A stretch of 64,000 nucleotides of DNA from a bacterium (GTDB taxonomy: Bacteria; UBP15; UBA6099), in the NCBI GenBank assembly GCA_029564595.1, contig JAKQPS010000183.1, positions 1 to 64,000 on the forward strand, given 5' to 3'. Shown here in pieces: positions 39,686 to 53,685 of the stretch. The position numbers and the translations under genes were made by a program. The notes beneath the pieces are model-generated. The model had not been told where the DNA came from. It made no database searches and saw nothing but the letters and a program-made list of their open reading frames with translations. The stretch's first letter is position 1. The number at the start of each line of letters is the position of its first letter.

Positions 39686-41359
39686 TCAAGGAGCGCGGAA
39701 CACTCCGAACACATCCCTGAACACGCCGCAGATTTCGCCCAGAGTGGCGTCCGCCCGCGCCGCTTCCAGTATCGCGTCAAACAGCGGCGCGTCGGGCGTT
39801 TCAGCCAGTTTCCTGAGAGCGTCAAGAGAAGCGGCCGCCCTCCCTCCGTCTCTCTCCGCGCGCAACTTCTCCAGATTCGCCTTTTGTTCCCTTTCAGCCT
39901 GTTCGCTGACACGCAACAGTATATGCTTCTTCTCGCCTTTGGCTTGGAACTTGTTTACGCCGACCACCACCCGGCGGCCCGACTCCACATCCTTCTGCCA
40001 CCTGTACGCCGCGTCTTGTATCTCTTTTTGCATCCATCCCTTTTCAATCGCTCCCACAGCCCCGCCCATCCCGTCTATCTTCTCGATATACTCCATCGAA
40101 ACGCGCTCTATCTCGTCGGTGAGGCTTTCGATGAAATAGGAGCCGGCCAAGGGGTCGATGGTGTCCGCCGCCCCGCTTTCGTGAGCTATTATCTGTTGCG
40201 TGCGCAGAGCGACGCGGACCGCGTCCTCGCTAGGCAGCGCCAGCGCCTCGTCCCATGAATTCGTGTGCAGCGACTGCGTCCCGCCAAGCACGGCCGCAAG
40301 CGCCTGCAGCGTCACACGCGCCACATTGTTGTCCGCCTGTTGCGCCGTCAGCATCGACCCCGCCGTCTGCGTGTGGAACCTCATCATCATCGACGTCGGC
40401 TTCTTCGCTCCGAAACGCTCCTTCATTATCTTCGCCCACAGCCTCCGCGCCGCCCTGTACTTCGCTATCTCCTCGAAAAAATTGTTGTGCGCGTTGAAAA
40501 AGAAACTCAGCCTCCCCGCGAACTGGTCCACATCCAGCCCCGCGTCTATGGCCGACTGCGCGTACGCTATCCCGTCAGCCAGCGTGAACGCGACCTCCTG
40601 TGCCGCCGTCGATCCCGCCTCCCGGATGTGATACCCGCTTATGCTTATCGTGTTCCACTTCGGCACGCTCGCCGCGCAATATTTGAACACGTCGGTTATC
40701 AGCCTCATAGACGGCTTCGGCGGGAAGATGTACATCCCCCTCGCGGTGTATTCTTTCAGAATATCATTCTGGACAGTCCCGTTGAGAGCGCCCGGAGCCA
40801 CGCCTTTCCGCTCCGCCGCGACGATGTACATCGCAAGCAGAACGTTCGCCGGCGCGTTTATCGTCATCGACACGCTTATCTTTGAAAAATCCAGCCCGTC
40901 GAAAAGAGCCTCGATGTCCCGCGCTGAATCGACCGGCACGCCCGTCTTTCCGACTTCCCCTTCCGCCAGCGGATTGTCCGAATCCATTCCCAACTGAGTC
41001 GGAAGGTCGAACGCAACACTGAAACCCGTCTGCCCCTGCTCCGCCAAATACCTGAAACGCTCGTTGGTTTCTTTCGCCGAAGAGAACCCCGCGTACTGCC
41101 GCATCGTCCAGAACCGGCCTCTGTACATCGTGGGCTGAACTCCGCGCGTGAACGGATATTCCCCCGGAAATCCCACATTGTCGATATACTCTTCATCCGT
41201 CGGCGCGTCGCTCGGACAATACAGCCTTCCCACTTCTATTCCGGACGTCGTTTCAAAACCGCTCTCCCTCTCGGGGAACTTCCCCGCCGATTTGGCCACA
41301 GCCCCGTTTTCCCATTCTTCCTTCTTCTCGCGAATCGTTTTGCGGATATCGTCGCCCAT
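39686..41359 (-). CDS. Methylmalonyl-CoA mutase family, large (catalytic) subunit alone
   Basis: About 557 residues: only the substrate-binding TIM-barrel part, as in the split enzymes of archaea and many anaerobes. Motifs include [25 protein letters not shown] near residue 75, [14 protein letters not shown] and the [15 protein letters not shown] region. The B12-binding small domain (DxHxxG) is absent and no separate small-subunit gene is within the window, so it must be supplied from elsewhere. It isomerises methylmalonyl-CoA and succinyl-CoA, or a related acyl-CoA pair such as ethylmalonyl- or isobutyryl-CoA. The ATG at 41359 has AAGGAG eight bases upstream; a longer reading to 41401 is less likely. 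Confidence 0.93.
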
Positions 41360-41514
41360 CGATTTGTCTCCTTTTTGCGTCCGACAACGTTCATCGGCCA
41401 ATTCCCTGCCATGCTGATTCTTATCTGATTCCTAATAATACCATATCGCGTTTGAACGACGCCCTTTATTTATTTTTTCTGTTCGAGTCCGCGAAAAATC
41501 GTTAAAATAGATTG

Positions 41515-42165
41515 ATGCCGTATTCAAGGAAACATCATCTCGAAATCGAAGCAGGCGCTGGAAAAGCCCTTCAAGGGATAGACTTGCCCGCAAGAGCGCG
41601 GACTCTCGGATTTCGAATTGTCGAAAAGCCGGACGCCTCAAAACAAATCATCGTCGACTATCTGGGCCGCAGGGTCTATCTAGACCCCGCAACCCTGAAA
41701 ACAGCCGACGCCGGCGGACGCCCTCTCCCACTCCAGATGAGGACCATCCTTTTCCACTATCTGCTAAACGAGACCGCCGCGCCCCTCGCAGGCGAATTCA
41801 TCCCTCTCAGAAAAATCCCGGAAATGATGAACTACGCCGAAGTCATAAGACGCCGCTCGGAAATCTTTCTGATTAGAGCTTTCGGAAAAAATCCGGAGCT
41901 TCTCTTCGACATCATTCCCGAAGTGGACGGCGCGCGTGTGGACATCGGCGACGCCGCCGTCAGGCTTTTCCCCCTTCCTCTCGTCCCTATGCTAGTGGCG
42001 ATTCACGGCGAGGACGAGGGCATCCCCGCCGAAGCTTCCGTCATGTTCGACCGCTCGGCTCCTTCCTTGCTTCACCTCGAAGACCTTGTGGTCATCGCCG
42101 AGCTTGTTTCTCATAAACTCGTCAATTTGACCGCGTCCGAGAAAGCGTCGAGGCCCGTTTCATGA
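41515..42165 (+). CDS. DUF3786 domain protein
   Basis: About 216 residues, the whole length of the DUF3786 family. Features are the LDYLGRRVYLDP-type motif (here IIVDYLGRRVYLDP), LPLQMRTILFHYLLN, the FIPLRKIPE segment, and the late ALVAIHGEDEG-like strand (MLVAIHGEDEGIPAEASVMFDRSAP). The family is found mainly in anaerobes, often beside corrinoid or iron-sulfur proteins; its function is not known. The ATG at 41515 follows a TTG that could also be used. The gene overlaps the next by four bases (ATGA), so it is coupled to a PhnD-like binding protein. It is divergent from the mutase gene, with 155 bases between. Confidence 0.8.
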   Translation: MPYSRKHHLEIEAGAGKALQGIDLPARARTLGFRIVEKPDASKQIIVDYLGRRVYLDPATLKTADAGGRPLPLQMRTILFHYLLNETAAPLAGEFIPLRKIPEMMNYAEVIRRRSEIFLIRAFGKNPELLFDIIPEVDGARVDIGDAAVRLFPLPLVPMLVAIHGEDEGIPAEASVMFDRSAPSLLHLEDLVVIAELVSHKLVNLTASEKASRPVS

Positions 42166-43118
42166 CCCTAAAATCTGATTTGCACGCCAGACGTATTCTT
42201 TTGCGCCCGTCAGTTTTCAGCGTCTCGTTTTTCGCGGCTCTTTTTTTGCTTTTATCTATCTCCGCTCTTTCATCCGATAAATCTGAAAAACAGCCGTCAT
42301 TAGTGTGCGGCGTCAGATTCAGCGACTCCGGCAGGCACGATGTCTTTGTGAAATCTATGGTCTCCAATTTTTTTTCCCGCATCGCCGAAAAAAAAGGCGT
42401 CGACGTCGAAGTCAGATGGTACACTGACGACGAGAGCCTGTTCAGGGACCTCCGATCAGGCGAGCTGAACTTTTTCTATTACCATAAAAAAATAGTTCCC
42501 GGCCCTCTCGAAAGCGCCTCGTTCCATCCGTGGTTGAGATACGAATTCCTCGGCTCGTTCAAGGACAAAGCGTGCTTATACGTCAGAAAAAACGGAGACA
42601 TCAAAAAACTGTCCCGACTCGAAGGAAAAACAATCGCGACCCAGCCCGAACTTAACGAATACGCTTCGCTGCGAAACATCATCGGCAAAAAGCCTCAGGA
42701 CTTCTTCTCTTCGACCCTGCTTAACGGAGACGCAGAGGAATCGCTCGCTCTTTTGCTGAACGGCGACGCTGACGCCGCTTTCGTTTTTAAGTCGAACGTC
42801 AGCTTCATGAAAATCTCAAACAATCATTCAATCAACGCAATCAGGGAATTATCGTGCTCGTCGCCTCTCGAATTCCCGCCTGTTCATATCGTCGACGGAA
42901 CGCCTGCGGAGATTGCCGACAGCATAAGGAAAATGGCGGTCTCCGCCCACGAAAGCGAAGACATGGCCGATTTCAGGCCCTTGTTCAAAACATACGGTTT
43001 CAGATTCGCCGACGCTGAAAAAAAAGATTTTTTCAACATAGACAAATTCTTGGCCGAGCTTGAATCAAAAGGTTGGAACGCCGATTTCGAAGAGTGGTTG
43101 TCTTCGGTCGAGCATTAA
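42162..43118 (+). CDS. PhnD-like periplasmic substrate-binding protein
   Basis: About 318 residues. An N-terminal hydrophobic segment (VSFFAALFLLLSISALSS, residues about 20-37) is a signal peptide or anchor after a long positive n-region. The mature part looks like the phosphate/phosphonate-binding (PhnD, SBP type 2) fold: LVCGVRFSD, the RDLRSGELNFFYYH segment that usually reads ALxxGxxDxxxxg, LSRLEGKTIATQ and LLNGDADAAFVFKS. No ABC ATPase or permease accompanies it; instead it is coupled by a four-base overlap to the DUF3786 gene and precedes a histidine-rich protein by 42 bases. It may therefore be a sensor or a metal-ligand binder rather than a transporter part. Confidence 0.72.
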   Translation: MTLKSDLHARRILLRPSVFSVSFFAALFLLLSISALSSDKSEKQPSLVCGVRFSDSGRHDVFVKSMVSNFFSRIAEKKGVDVEVRWYTDDESLFRDLRSGELNFFYYHKKIVPGPLESASFHPWLRYEFLGSFKDKACLYVRKNGDIKKLSRLEGKTIATQPELNEYASLRNIIGKKPQDFFSSTLLNGDAEESLALLLNGDADAAFVFKSNVSFMKISNNHSINAIRELSCSSPLEFPPVHIVDGTPAEIADSIRKMAVSAHESEDMADFRPLFKTYGFRFADAEKKDFFNIDKFLAELESKGWNADFEEWLSSVEH

Positions 43119-43160
43119 ATATAACGGGCCTGACGCTCGTCTGGCCCATCGGAGGGTGAA

Positions 43161-43559
43161 ATGAAAGACAAACACGAACATTCGCATTGCCATGAGCACG
43201 AGCATTCTCACAGTCATGCTCACGAGCACGAACACTGCCATGAGCACGAGCATGATAGCGAAGGCGGCCATCAGCACGACCATGCTCACGAAAATCTGCA
43301 TGAGGGCGGCTGCGCTCGCTCTCATGAACATTCATCCGGGAGCGCTGACGCCTCGGCGTCCTCGGACGAAAACAAAAAACTCAAGATTCGCATCGAGCGC
43401 TGGATGGAACACAACAGGGAGCATCAGGAATCTTTGGAGGAATGGGCTGCGAAAGCCCGCGGCATGGGCCTTTCGGACGCGGCAGACTCTCTGGCTAAAT
43501 CAGCCGAGGCAATGGCCGCCTCGGTGTCCGAACTGAAAAAAGCTCTCGCGGCGTTCTGA
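43161..43559 (+). CDS. Histidine-rich metal-binding protein
   Basis: About 132 residues. The first 57 contain about 21 His and three Cys, arranged as H-x-H repeats (HEHSHCHEHEHSH and so on), clearly a metal-buffering segment for Ni, Co, Zn or Cu. The C-terminal half is a charged helical domain (IRIERWMEHNREHQESLEEWAAKARGMG and a final coiled helix) of a type seen attached to His-rich tails of metal transport proteins. There is no signal peptide, so it is cytoplasmic. A strong GGAGGG precedes the ATG. Its place after a DUF3786 and a binding-protein gene suggests a metal handling role for the cluster. Confidence 0.8.
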   Translation: MKDKHEHSHCHEHEHSHSHAHEHEHCHEHEHDSEGGHQHDHAHENLHEGGCARSHEHSSGSADASASSDENKKLKIRIERWMEHNREHQESLEEWAAKARGMGLSDAADSLAKSAEAMAASVSELKKALAAF

Positions 43560-43671
43560 TTGTCGCGCGGCCTGAGTTTATCCCGCATTCGCCCGCGCGC
43601 CTCCGGCGCTATATAATTACTTTCGCGCCCGGCCGCTCCTCCATAATATCAATCCGGGCGCGCGGATCGAC

Positions 43672-44694
43672 ATGATTAAACTGTCTTTCAAAATATTCGC
43701 CGTACTCACTGTCGCCTTTTTCATCCTCGCTGCAGGCGTTTTTATCGCGGTCAAAACCAACCCGCCCGAATACATCGTCAGCGACGTCATCGTGGACGGC
43801 GTCTATCCAACCGCGCGCGAACACCTCAAAGGCAAATTCATAAGGATGCTCTTGGACCTCGAAAGCGGCAAAGACATACAAGAGTTCGAAATCACCGAAA
43901 TCGAGGCGAACGCCCACATCCGCCAGATGTTCGACAATTTCATAACCCCCAGCGGAATGCCCATCGCCACCGACCCTTACCTCTTCATGAGCCCGGGCAA
44001 GCTGAAGTTGCGTTTTGACATTCCTTTCGGCAACATGATGGAGTTCATCGGAAATAAAATGGACGACATGGCTCTGGACGACAACCTCAAGGCCATAGCG
44101 ACCGATAAAGGCTCCCGCTCCAAGATGACTATAACCGTCATCGTTCGGGTCTATTGGGTCGAAAAGGAGAGCCGCCCTTTCTTCTATCTTGAAAAAATCT
44201 ACATCGGCGCGCTCCCGGTCGCCGTCCCGCTGGCTCTCGCGGAATACCAACAGCAGTTCAACGACAATATTTGGGGCGGATACGAGCGGAACATGTCCAG
44301 CATCCCCGTCTACATCAAGAAAATCGAAGCGCGCGAGAAAATCTTCCGCTTCGACCTCGAGCCGCGAGTGACTCCCGAATACTCTTTCGCCCGCCAGTCC
44401 GAAAAGTTCCTTCAGGCCAATCCGGAACTGGGGCGCGCTATGGATAGCAAAAACTGCCTCTACGGCTGCACTCAAGAGGAATGGGACGCTCTTCAGAAGT
44501 ATCACTCCGAACTGAAGACTCTCGGAGCGCGGGATATCAAAATGACGGACGCCGTGCGCGCTCAGGCTATGGTAAACATGATGAAGAGAAGAGACGCCGA
44601 ACGCAGGGAGAACCCTTTCGAGCGCCGCAAGGAATACGAGCCTGAGACCGAACCGGACGTCATTATCTATCCTGAACGTTACGAAGGAATGTGA
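43672..44694 (+). CDS. Unknown membrane-anchored protein
   Basis: About 340 residues; I recognise no family. Residues 5-28 (SFKIFAVLTVAFFILAAGVFIAV) form one membrane helix, leaving the rest probably in the periplasm. The remainder is a mixed alpha/beta region with many charged residues, a segment with two Cys close together (NCLYGC, about 262-267), and a highly charged C-terminal tail (RRDAERRENPFERRKEYEPETEPD). There is no strong ribosome site before the ATG. It ends the plus-strand group that begins with the DUF3786 gene, after a 112-base gap, and precedes clpC by 132 bases with its own promoter. Confidence 0.65.
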   Translation: MIKLSFKIFAVLTVAFFILAAGVFIAVKTNPPEYIVSDVIVDGVYPTAREHLKGKFIRMLLDLESGKDIQEFEITEIEANAHIRQMFDNFITPSGMPIATDPYLFMSPGKLKLRFDIPFGNMMEFIGNKMDDMALDDNLKAIATDKGSRSKMTITVIVRVYWVEKESRPFFYLEKIYIGALPVAVPLALAEYQQQFNDNIWGGYERNMSSIPVYIKKIEAREKIFRFDLEPRVTPEYSFARQSEKFLQANPELGRAMDSKNCLYGCTQEEWDALQKYHSELKTLGARDIKMTDAVRAQAMVNMMKRRDAERRENPFERRKEYEPETEPDVIIYPERYEGM

Positions 44695-48467: not shown

Positions 48468-49478
48468 TTATTTTTCGACGATGGTCTCCTGGATTTTCAT
48501 GCCGAAGTGACGGGCGGTGTCTTCGGTGTGGGCGAGGACGAGGTCGCCGGGTTTGAGGGCGACGACGGAGACGGGGGAGCCGTCGGGGCGGACGAGTCTG
48601 ATGGTTTCGGCGTTCTGGAGGACGAGCGACACGGGGCGCGCGGGCGCGCCATCGGCGGGGCATGTCTCGGCTTCGACGAGCATGAGGGGTCTGCGCTCGA
48701 CTTTTGCGCGCCCTACGACAGCGGTTTCGCCGCCCCCGTCGTGATTGACGATAAGCATCTCGTCTCCGGCTTTAATTTCGGAGAGGTATTTCGTGCCGCC
48801 GCCGGCGACGCGGACGTACGCGTGGACGGCTCCGGCGTTCACCCTGAATGGCCGGGCTGCGACGTACGGATTGTCCACGCTTTCAGAATGGACGAGGAAC
48901 ATGGCGGAGCCGGAGTTGCCGACCAGCATCCCCTGCCCCGGTTTCATGTTGGTGCAGGTGTCCACGCAGACGCGGTCGCCCATGCCAAGCTGCCGGACGG
49001 CGGTTATCTTCGCCTCGACGAGGCCGAGCTTCTCCGATTCCAGTTTGATGGCGCGGGCGGTCTTTTTAATCTCGTTGATGTCGTCCGTTTTGAGGAGGAC
49101 GCCGCGAACGCCTTTTTCGAGAATGGTCACGGCGGTTTTTGCGGCTTCGGCGCAATCGACTGCGGCGATGACGCCGTCCGCCTGCGCGATGATGTTTTCG
49201 AGAGGGATAATCGTCCAGTCGGAAGAGCTGACGATGACGGTTTTAGATTTTCCGAGGCGCGCGGCTTCCACTTCGTCGGCCTTCGTGTCGATGGAAATCT
49301 CGACCACGTCGTCGCCGAGTATGAGGTCGCCGTCCGGAGCGACGATAGTGATCAGGCCGAGTTCGCGCGCTTTGTCGGCGAAGCCCTCCGGGATGAGAAC
49401 GGCGTCCGCGCCGCTTTCTAGCGCGGCGGTCATTTTCTTTTTGTCCCACGGTCTGACGTCAACCCAGAAAAGTTTCAT
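48468..49478 (-). CDS. 3-dehydroquinate synthase II (archaeal type)
   Basis: About 336 residues of the MJ1249-type family. It begins MKLFWVDVRPWDKKKMTAALESGAD, as in archaea, and has GVLLKTDDINEIKKTA, GDRVCVDTCTNMKPGQGMLVGNSGSAMFLVHSE and the ALVHAYV/GGGTKYLSEIKAGDE region. It turns 2-amino-3,7-dideoxy-D-threo-hept-6-ulosonate into 3-dehydroquinate by NAD-dependent oxidative deamination and cyclisation, replacing AroB. GGGAG lies six bases before the ATG at 49478. It follows the ADTH synthase gene by 82 bases, so both steps of the alternative (DKFP) entry to aromatic amino acids are in one operon. Confidence 0.93.
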   Translation of the reverse strand: MKLFWVDVRPWDKKKMTAALESGADAVLIPEGFADKARELGLITIVAPDGDLILGDDVVEISIDTKADEVEAARLGKSKTVIVSSSDWTIIPLENIIAQADGVIAAVDCAEAAKTAVTILEKGVRGVLLKTDDINEIKKTARAIKLESEKLGLVEAKITAVRQLGMGDRVCVDTCTNMKPGQGMLVGNSGSAMFLVHSESVDNPYVAARPFRVNAGAVHAYVRVAGGGTKYLSEIKAGDEMLIVNHDGGGETAVVGRAKVERRPLMLVEAETCPADGAPARPVSLVLQNAETIRLVRPDGSPVSVVALKPGDLVLAHTEDTARHFGMKIQETIVEK

Positions 49479-49560
49479 GATAATCTCCCGTAGGCGGAAA
49501 CAAGTCCGCCGAGATGGCGAATAGTTGACCGGCGCGCGGCCCGGTGGCCGGAGGCGGCGG

Positions 49561-50373
49561 TTACTTCTTTTTCTTCGAGCCGCTTTTAACGATGTCCAAA
49601 GCGTCTTTGACGGAAGCATTGCGATGGACAATGGCGCTGATGGCGGCGGTGATGCGAGTGGTGTCCGCGGCTTGGAAGACGTTGCGTCCTATGGAAACGC
49701 CCGCGCCGCCGGCGTCGATGGAGCCTTTCACCATAGTGAGCACCTGAGCGACGGTGTTCATCTTTTCGCCGCCCGCGATGACGACGGGGATGGAGCTGCC
49801 CTCGACGACTTCGCGGAACGTGTCCGGGCTGCCAGTGTAATTCACCTTGACGATATCGGCTCCCAGTTCGGAGGCGACGCGCGCGGCGTGCTTGACGAAT
49901 TTCACATCATATTCGTTCTTAATTTTTTCGCCCCGGCAGTACATCATGGCGAGCAGAGGCATACCCCAGTCCATGCAGGCGAGAGAGACTTGTCCGAGAG
50001 CCTCAAGCATCTTGGACTCGTGTTTGGCGCCGAGGTTGCAATGGATGGAAACGCCGTCCGCCCCCATTTTGATACTGCGCTCGACGTTGCTGACAAGGAC
50101 TTTGTCGTTCGGGTCTGGGTTGAGGGAAGTGCTGGCGGACAGATGGAGGATGAGTCCGATGTCTTTTCCATAGCCCCTGTGGCCGTGAAGCGGGAGGCCG
50201 AGGTGTCCGAGCACGGCGTTGGCCCCGCCGTCTGCGACCGAGTTGACGGAAGCCCCCATATCGATAAGCCCGGCGATCGGGCCGACGGAGACGCCGTGAT
50301 CCATCGGGACGATAACCGTCCTCATCTTTTCCCTGTCCATCAGTCTTTCGAGTCTTACTTTTTTGCCTATCAT
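49561..50373 (-). CDS. 2-amino-3,7-dideoxy-D-threo-hept-6-ulosonate (ADTH) synthase
   Basis: About 270 residues of the DhnA/fructose-bisphosphate-aldolase class I group. It has IVPMDHGVSVGPIAGLID, the MADGGANAVLGHLG-like segment, the Schiff-base Lys in ADIVKVNYTGS, and VVIAGGEKMNTVAQVL and GGAGVSIGRNVFQA near the end, as in MJ0400. It condenses aspartate semialdehyde with a 6-deoxy-5-ketofructose 1-phosphate-derived unit. Placed directly upstream of DHQ synthase II. Related DhnA aldolases exist, but this pairing makes the ADTH role nearly certain. The C-terminus ends in five basic residues (GSKKKK). Confidence 0.93.
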   Translation of the reverse strand: MIGKKVRLERLMDREKMRTVIVPMDHGVSVGPIAGLIDMGASVNSVADGGANAVLGHLGLPLHGHRGYGKDIGLILHLSASTSLNPDPNDKVLVSNVERSIKMGADGVSIHCNLGAKHESKMLEALGQVSLACMDWGMPLLAMMYCRGEKIKNEYDVKFVKHAARVASELGADIVKVNYTGSPDTFREVVEGSSIPVVIAGGEKMNTVAQVLTMVKGSIDAGGAGVSIGRNVFQAADTTRITAAISAIVHRNASVKDALDIVKSGSKKKK

Positions 50374-51622: not shown

Positions 51623-52876
51623 ATGAGAAAAACAACTTTGAAGGAACTGCCGGAGGAAAGACGGGAATATCTCCGAATCGAAGACGTGCTGGACGTCGAG
51701 GTGGAAAGGCCGGACGTTGACGCGCCGGCGCGCACGGCGTCCAGCCTCGACATGTCCGCCGGAGGAATAAGGCTTTCAGGGAACCAGCCTGTGAAGCGCG
51801 GGGACATGGTGTGGACGCGATTCAGCGTTCCGACCCCGGAAGGCGACAGAGTCATCGAGTCGCTGTGCGAAGTGAGGTGGGCGTCCGAGGGCGACGCCGA
51901 ATCAACGAACAAGTATCTTTTTGGAGTGAGTTTCTACGACATCGAGCCGAGCGACAGGGAGTTGCTGTTAAGGCACGTATTTTCCAAGCATTACGGGATA
52001 GAAAGAAGCGGAGGCCCGGCGGTCGTGGCGATGGACCTGCGGGGAAAGAACTACGGGGTCGAATCGCTGCGGGGCGTATCGCTGGAAGTCGCGGCTGGAG
52101 AATCCGTGGCTCTGCTGGGGCCGGCGGGAGCGGGGAAATCGACTCTCATCCGGATACTGGCCACATCCCAGAAGCCGACGTCCGGTTCCGCGAAAGTGAT
52201 GGGGTTCGATCTGGCGACGCAGAAGAAGGAAGCCAGACAAACGATAGGCTATATGCCGCGCGAGGACGCGCTGTACGACAAGCTGACGGCGACGGAGAAT
52301 CTGAGATTTTTCGGGCGCGCCCACAAGCTGCACGGAAGAAGACTGGCGGACAAGATAGCGGAAGCTCTGGCGTTCACGAACCTGCTGGAGAAAGCCGGGG
52401 AGCCTGTCAGAAAGCTCAGCCCCGGCATGAGAAGAAGGCTGTCTCTTGCCTGCGCGATAGTGCACCGCCCGAAGCTGTTGCTGATGGACGAGCCGGTGGA
52501 CGGAGCAGGCCCGGCCCTCAGAGAAGAATTCCACAACTATCTAAGGCAACTCAAGGATATAGGCGTTTCGATAATAATGTCCACGCGGGAAGCCGCGGAA
52601 GCGCTGGAGAGCGACCGGGTGGTGTTCATGATAGACGGGCGGGCTCTTGCGGACGATTCGCCAGAGAATCTAATGAAGCTCGGTTTCGCCACAGTCAAGC
52701 TCACGGTCGGCGGAGAGAGCCGAGAGCACAGGGTGCAGGATTACACGACGGCCCTGCCCGCGATACTCCGCGAACTGGGCGGGGACGCCTCGCGGCTCGA
52801 AAAGGTGGAGATTTGCGAAAACACGCTGGACGACATCATCCGGGACCACTTCCTACCGGGGGGCGACGCTGAATGA
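51623..52876 (+). CDS. PilZ domain fused to an ABC transporter ATPase
   Basis: About 417 residues. Residues 11-120 form a PilZ domain with both c-di-GMP motifs: RxxxR (R14-R18 in RREYLR) and DxSxxG (D43-G48 in DMSAGG). Residues 132-350 form an ABC-2-type ATPase: Walker A GPAGAGKST (166-174), signature LSPGMRRR (265-272), Walker B LLLMDE with Glu290. Three catalytic loops differ from the norm: the Q-loop Gln is Arg213 (GYMPRED), the D-loop Asp is Gly296 (DGAGP), and the switch His is Arg322 (MSTRE). A C-terminal regulatory-like tail follows. It overlaps the permease gene by four bases. The sequence suggests a c-di-GMP-controlled transporter with slow or altered ATP hydrolysis; no such system is known to me. 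Confidence 0.88.
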   Translation: MRKTTLKELPEERREYLRIEDVLDVEVERPDVDAPARTASSLDMSAGGIRLSGNQPVKRGDMVWTRFSVPTPEGDRVIESLCEVRWASEGDAESTNKYLFGVSFYDIEPSDRELLLRHVFSKHYGIERSGGPAVVAMDLRGKNYGVESLRGVSLEVAAGESVALLGPAGAGKSTLIRILATSQKPTSGSAKVMGFDLATQKKEARQTIGYMPREDALYDKLTATENLRFFGRAHKLHGRRLADKIAEALAFTNLLEKAGEPVRKLSPGMRRRLSLACAIVHRPKLLLMDEPVDGAGPALREEFHNYLRQLKDIGVSIIMSTREAAEALESDRVVFMIDGRALADDSPENLMKLGFATVKLTVGGESREHRVQDYTTALPAILRELGGDASRLEKVEICENTLDDIIRDHFLPGGDAE

Positions 52877-53685
52877 CATTCAGCATCATCGACAACGCGG
52901 TCTCAATAGCGAAAAGGATTTTTAAGGAAATACCGCGGGACAGGATGTCCGTCCCGCACCTTTTTATATTTCCCGCGCTCGCGATTTATATAGTAAAAAT
53001 ATTCGCGGACGGGATATCATACGCCGACCCTGCGGACGGACTGGCTCCGAGGGAGACTCTTGCGGCGGGCTTCGCGTGTTTCGTCGTTCACATCAGCGCG
53101 TTCGGATTCTGCGCGAGAGTGTTCGTGAGAGAGCGGATAGGCGGAGCGCTTGAACGCGTCCAAGCCATAGGAGTATCGCCCGCGTCGGTCGTGACCGGGT
53201 ACGTATGCGGATTCGCGCCGTTCGTGCTGGTTCAATCCCTAGCTGTGGCGGCTGCGTCGGCGCTGATTTTCGGAGTTTCATTTCGGGGAGCGGCGTGGGC
53301 GGTTCCGGCGTCCGCGTTTTTGCTCGGAGTGGTGTCGGTGGCGATGTCGATGTTCACATCCGGGGCCGCCAGACGCGGAACGGAGGCGTTCGCGGCGATA
53401 CCGTTGATTCTCCCGCCCGCGCTGCTGTTGGGCGAAGTGATATTTCCGCTTGAAGCCCTGCCCGCTTGGCTGAACGCCTTGAGTTACGCGTTTCCCATGA
53501 GATACGCGATCGAGCCTTTGAACGCGGCGATAACATGCGAGATGGCGGGATGCCCGGCCCGCGATTTCTTCGGACTAATCGTTTATGGAATAGCAATGTT
53601 CGCGCTGGCGACGGTTTTCTTCAGGCATAGAGAGGCGGCTCCGAGGGCCGTTCACAGGATGTCCCGAAAAAGTGACGGAGGATGA
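52873..53685 (+). CDS. ABC-2 type permease
   Basis: About 270 residues with about six membrane helices: one near 30-48, others around 60-80, 108-130, 140-160, 173-190 and 230-250. FVRERIGGALERVQAIGVSPASVVTGYV after the second helix is the conserved ABC-2 coupling segment that contacts the ATPase, and the PLILPPALLLGEVIFPLEALPAWLNALSYAFPMRYAIEPL segment (given in part as GEVIFPLEALPAWLNAL and FPMRYAIEPL) is the ABC-2 signature near the last helices. It is coupled to the PilZ-ATPase (ATGA overlap) and most likely exports a lipid, polysaccharide or drug-like molecule. The DNA start ATG is also the end of the ATPase gene. Confidence 0.88.
   Translation: MTFSIIDNAVSIAKRIFKEIPRDRMSVPHLFIFPALAIYIVKIFADGISYADPADGLAPRETLAAGFACFVVHISAFGFCARVFVRERIGGALERVQAIGVSPASVVTGYVCGFAPFVLVQSLAVAAASALIFGVSFRGAAWAVPASAFLLGVVSVAMSMFTSGAARRGTEAFAAIPLILPPALLLGEVIFPLEALPAWLNALSYAFPMRYAIEPLNAAITCEMAGCPARDFFGLIVYGIAMFALATVFFRHREAAPRAVHRMSRKSDGG

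Follow-up and report, generated by a model that had tools for sequence, protein, structure and literature searches.

The window, i.e. the whole stretch of 64,000 nucleotides that was analysed, lies on contig C108 of a 4.4-Mb draft genome (G000) whose closest relatives are metagenome-assembled genomes (MAGs) from the candidate phylum UBP15, including ADurb.Bin236 and UBA6099. The segment considered here comprises four genes on the forward strand and a mutase gene placed divergently beside them:

39686-41401, minus strand: methylmalonyl-CoA mutase large (N-terminal) subunit, divergent from P0001
41515-42165, plus strand: P0001, DUF3786 protein (PF12654), 216 aa, cytoplasmic, without cysteine
42162-43118, plus strand: P0002, PhnD-like extracytoplasmic binding protein (PF12974), 318 aa, with an N-terminal signal/anchor segment
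43161-43559, plus strand: P0003, His-rich protein, 132 aa, with a His-rich N-terminal part and a C-terminal helical domain
43672-44694, plus strand: P0004, unrecognised anchored protein, 340 aa, with a single N-terminal membrane anchor

Coordinates, reading frames and order of the four genes agree with the original prediction, as do the four-base overlap of P0001 and P0002 (ATGA at 42162-42165), the 42 bases between P0002 and P0003 (43119-43160), the 21 histidines within residues 1-57 of P0003, the anchoring of P0004 by one N-terminal hydrophobic stretch and the identity of the divergent neighbour (MM_CoA_mutase, Pfam E 6e-225). An in-frame TTG at 41512 provides an alternative upstream start for P0001. 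Within the genus, dN/dS amounts to 0.05-0.32 for P0001-P0004 and the mutase gene, from which it follows that all five are real genes under purifying selection and not chance reading frames. An Rfam search of the window gave no match, and a scan for promoters and terminators returned counts no higher than chance. Further along the window (48468-50373, minus strand), a 3-dehydroquinate synthase II gene stands beside a DeoC/LacD-type aldolase gene, the combination with which the shikimate pathway begins in archaea, here encoded by a bacterium; on contig C138 of the same bacterial genome (L087, 4982-6919), a threonyl-tRNA synthetase carries the archaea-specific editing domain PF08915.

The segment had been read as a system for sensing, scavenging or inserting a metal or corrinoid precursor, with the recurrence of its gene order in other genomes as a check. 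Order, overlap and spacing are indeed identical in four UBP15 genomes of one genus (G000 and three others) with a dS of about 0.1-0.2 among them, which would be in line with a genus-level system in which the PhnD-like receptor captures or senses a metal or corrinoid precursor, P0004 relays, P0003 buffers, and the DUF3786 protein uses the metal or precursor for corrinoid enzymes including the mutase; that nickel and corrinoid metabolism covers two of the four families (see below) speaks for it as well. However, the arrangement does not persist in the remaining three genera of the taxonomic order (G004, G005 and G006). DUF3786, P0004-type and mutase homologues are located there on separate contigs or about 48 kb apart, P0003 homologues were found in just G005 and G006, again on different contigs, and a P0004 homologue was not found in G006. 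The genes surrounding these homologues are unrelated ones, namely PhoH/SpoIIE, alpha-N-acetylglucosaminidase (NAGLU) or a thymidine-phosphorylase-type gene in the case of DUF3786, and TldD/PmbA genes next to the P0004 homologues in both other UBP15 genera that have them. Likewise, none of 32 DUF3786 loci fetched from other genomes has a PhnD-like gene or a gene for the P0003 hairpin domain nearby, 112 bases separate P0003 from P0004, and the paralogues of P0002 stand beside cyclases or kinases rather than metal genes. A common genus-level system thus appears fairly unlikely to us. Outside the genus the homologues are scattered, which for the four-gene order is the outcome that had been named beforehand as a refutation. 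The four genes as a single sensing, scavenging or insertion system are unsupported, and the segment is probably a genus-specific neighbourhood, not one dedicated metal-sensing machine. What stands of the metal/corrinoid idea is the association of the P0003 domain with NikR, CbiMNQO and CooT and of DUF3786 with the corrinoid/acetyl-CoA synthase (ACS) pathway. The suggested link to the mutase is likewise lineage-specific, the mutase-DUF3786 adjacency being conserved within the genus only.

P0001 matches DUF3786 (PF12654) with an E value of 8e-35 and 120 bits versus a gathering score of 27. When genomes serve as the units of counting (386, some of them related), DUF3786 is present in 36, and 31 of these encode CdhC, which occurs in 42 genomes overall (p 3e-31); the association persists when UBP15 is left aside (24 of 29 DUF3786 genomes, p 7e-25) and when families are collapsed (22 of 25 DUF3786 families with CdhC). 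Since such co-occurrence could also stem from a shared anaerobic lifestyle instead of direct function, we have placed weight on operon position and fusion. In five genomes (0.09 expected), DUF3786 lies at most 5 kb from CdhC. It is found between AcsE and RACo within the ACS operon of two genomes (G044, G189), adjoins AcsE in G267 and RACo in G051, and in G323 is located downstream of AcsE and followed by an ORF with a CooC-like beginning (assigned by sight). Two further genomes (G266, G241) encode DUF3786 fused to PF04060, the Fe-S domain that opens the corrinoid protein subunit CdhD/AcsC. Throughout these neighbourhoods, the identification of CooC, CbiQ, CbiN and part of the ACS subunits relied on visual inspection of the sequence, and representatives of CdhD, AcsE, RACo, CooT, CbiM and NikR were Pfam-checked. 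P0001 shares the full-length PF12654 domain with the Wood-Ljungdahl-operon proteins but differs from them in that its gene, as is the case for UBP15 DUF3786, sits outside the ACS operon and in lacking the N-terminal PF04060 domain. Based on the operon positions and the PF04060 fusion, our best guess is that the corrinoid Fe-S protein, or the step that activates it, may be where DUF3786 acts. A PDB sequence search with P0001 returned no credible relative, and its predicted structure, based on an alignment of near-identical sequences only, reached a pLDDT of 44, too low to be of use.

P0003 is composed of its His-rich part and a helical C-terminal domain of about 65 residues (about 70-132) with the signature R-W-x2-H-N-x2-H, and neither a Pfam nor an NCBIfam model matched the protein, this hairpin domain included. 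In the alignment of hairpin domains, two histidines and a tryptophan are invariant, and a tryptophan and the asparagine nearly so (W-x2-HN-x2-H). The domain is present in 14 of the 386 genomes, eight of them, a small sample, being outside UBP15. In G129 its gene comes immediately behind NikR-CbiM-CbiQ-CbiO, in G266 behind CbiM-N-Q-O, and in a Nitrospirae MAG (L117, 9155-10189) the C-terminus of CbiO is fused to the domain via a His-rich linker. The latter arrangement, a His-rich linker and then a helical domain, has the same order as P0003 and brings to mind the His-rich C-terminal extensions of CbiO/NikO in Ni/Co ECF systems, from which P0003 differs as a free protein. CooT lies 29-59 bp from the hairpin gene in G033, G093, G098 and G365 (the last two representing one family); the hairpin gene stands alone in G241 and G144. 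Of eight genomes searched in the phylum of G098, five gave a match; three of these were new and share an orthologous locus after MutS. CooT was found in every checked hairpin genome of at least 90% completeness, and, with partly related genomes again as units, CdhC in 12 of 14 hairpin genomes (p 4e-11) and DUF3786 in 13 of 14 (p 6e-14; 9 of 10 after family collapse). The anticipated co-occurrence with corrinoid and nickel enzymes hence holds for DUF3786 and for the His-rich family alike. G000 itself encodes a CODH/ACS operon (C131), CooT (C59) and a CbiMNQO-type transporter whose CbiO is without a His-rich tail. Around the UBP15 CooT genes, no further nickel gene was recognised.

These features recall CooJ of R. 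rubrum, a His-rich, nickel-binding protein required for CODH-dependent growth at low nickel (PMC6006190). P0003 is likewise small and His-rich, with a His-rich and a helical part, its homologues adjoin CooT and occur in CODH/ACS genomes, and the combination of CODH and CooT expected of a CooJ genome exists in G000. The CooJ motif is said to have been described as H-[WF]-x2-H-x3-H in the 2019 structure paper of Alfano and colleagues. Most relatives of P0003 carry this pattern, the first histidine being kept in 10 of 12 aligned hairpin homologues, whereas arginine replaces it in the genus of P0003 (R-W-M-E-H-N-R-E-H in P0003 itself). Further differences are the N-terminal location of the His-rich half in P0003 versus its C-terminal location in R. 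rubrum CooJ, and the position of the P0003 gene outside any cooS operon. PDB sequence searches with the hairpin yielded no credible relative, the matches being mostly designed or coiled-coil proteins, and those of single sequences and profiles contain no CooJ entry. In view of the arginine, the reversed halves and these PDB searches, in which a direct match to CooJ could not be shown, we designate P0003 as CooJ-like instead of classing it with CooJ proper; it looks like CooJ with its halves swapped. One may object that several metals bind to His-rich tracts, that P0003 lacks the first motif histidine and that in UBP15 no nickel genes adjoin P0003-type genes, such that P0003 might serve general storage or detoxification of zinc or copper and the context from other phyla would not be transferable to UBP15. 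We consider this highly improbable, since unrelated phyla repeatedly show a specific helical domain, beyond the His tract, in the company of NikR, CooT and CbiMNQO. The best-supported metal is nickel, in connection with CODH/ACS, over cobalt for the mutase, bearing in mind that for transporters of the CbiM type Ni and Co could not be distinguished from the sequences considered here.

P0002 belongs to the fold family of PhnD (PF12974, Phosphonate-bd, E 1e-16) and is, like PhnD, predicted to be secreted. Assignment to the PhnD equivalog (TIGR03431) was rejected, at 26 bits versus a cut-off of 261. A Ser-Thr-Ser stretch binds the anion in PhnD; P0002 has ELNEYAS in its place and no transporter encoded beside it, and it appears to be a distant PhnD relative at most, without phosphonate hallmarks. 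A PDB sequence search with P0002 revealed no credible relative. As stated originally, P0002 has no ABC partners, there being no adjacent permease or ATPase genes, though a partner encoded elsewhere may exist; the sole ABC genes in the scanned neighbourhood are an ABC-2-type pair 8.5 kb downstream (window 51623-53685), which encodes first an ABC ATPase whose N-terminal domain is PilZ (c-di-GMP-binding), then an ABC-2 membrane protein. The PhnD-like family has 8 matches in G000 and 26 in G004, and two cysteines conserved across the family would suit a disulfide outside the cytoplasm. Four contigs of G004 (C181, C118, C101 and C44; L064-L067) harbour divergent PhnD-like genes arranged in tandem, two to seven per array, with little else on C181 and C118 and with one array ending in a sensor-HAMP-cyclase gene; such transporter-less arrays of binding-protein genes are unusual. 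Several paralogues adjoin either a histidine kinase or a membrane protein in which a periplasmic sensor region and HAMP are combined with a class III cyclase, a membrane signalling enzyme being present next to those at L067, L075, L076, L083, L085, L088 and L089. The following UBP15 loci each pair a PhnD-like gene with a cyclase or kinase gene:

L075, 4924-7677: PhnD-like gene and cyclase/kinase gene
L076, 4458-7679: PhnD-like gene and cyclase/kinase gene
L083, 1410-4550: PhnD-like gene and cyclase/kinase gene
L085, 6472-9233: PhnD-like gene and cyclase/kinase gene
L088, 5441-8433: PhnD-like gene and cyclase/kinase gene
L089, 6538-9541: PhnD-like gene and cyclase/kinase gene

These pairs constitute a possible receptor family, and the location of the paralogues beside cyclases and kinases suggests that the PhnD-like family may serve reception rather than transport. 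The arrangement resembles receptors of the NspS-MbaA type, where a transporter-less secreted binding protein likewise stands beside a membrane signalling enzyme, with the differences that in UBP15 the partner is a class III cyclase or a histidine kinase and that P0002 itself has no adjoining membrane signalling enzyme. Together with the ATGA overlap, which all four genomes of the genus retain, the signalling enzymes next to the paralogues could be taken to mean that DUF3786-PhnD alone is the real unit, its receptor signalling a C1 or corrinoid substrate, and that P0003 and P0004 are bystanders. Yet the pair is missing from other genera, and P0002, alone on a long branch within its family, is the fastest evolving of the five genes (dN/dS 0.19-0.32), a behaviour that fits a free receptor and not a locked partner; a two-gene unit of this kind seems distinctly improbable.

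P0004 matched no Pfam or NCBIfam family, and its predicted structure, again built on near-identical sequences only, has a pLDDT of 38, likewise too low for use. Residues 262-267 (CLYGCT, with C262 and C266) are invariant in six of six homologues.

Taken together, we think it rather likely that the segment is a genus-specific neighbourhood of a CooJ-like protein, an ACS/corrinoid accessory, a transporter-free receptor and a separate fourth gene. P0003 would be a cytoplasmic nickel-binding protein whose His-rich arm may buffer Ni(II) imported by the CbiMNQO-type transporter of G000, and whose W-x2-HN-x2-H domain would most likely dock or offer the metal for CODH/ACS maturation. P0001 could assist the acetyl-CoA synthase/corrinoid branch, its most likely target or partner being the corrinoid Fe-S protein or the reductive activation of that protein. 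P0002 might belong to a phylum-specific family of secreted receptors for solutes that function in the absence of a transporter and of which some appear to pair with membrane cyclases or kinases; its translational coupling to DUF3786 presumably arose in this genus. As for P0004, a separate gene with an envelope function is probable. A more far-reaching joint reading, which we regard as clearly unlikely, would make DUF3786 an unrecognised accessory for maturation or reactivation of the ACS/corrinoid Fe-S protein across phyla and the hairpin a widespread but so far undescribed module for Ni delivery, which occurs as part of CbiO or as a free protein that may or may not carry a His-rich arm, with the secreted receptor in this genus reporting metal or corrinoid supply.

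CooJ genes have been missed by both NCBI prediction and eggNOG (PMC13056359), and the CooJ-like hairpin domain described here, having neither a Pfam nor an NCBIfam model, is invisible to both model sets. The analysis connects two families that lack characterisation with nickel and corrinoid chemistry in the Wood-Ljungdahl pathway, and a DUF that accompanies ACS/RACo operons across many phyla could account for an unassigned step in the making or reactivation of the enzyme.
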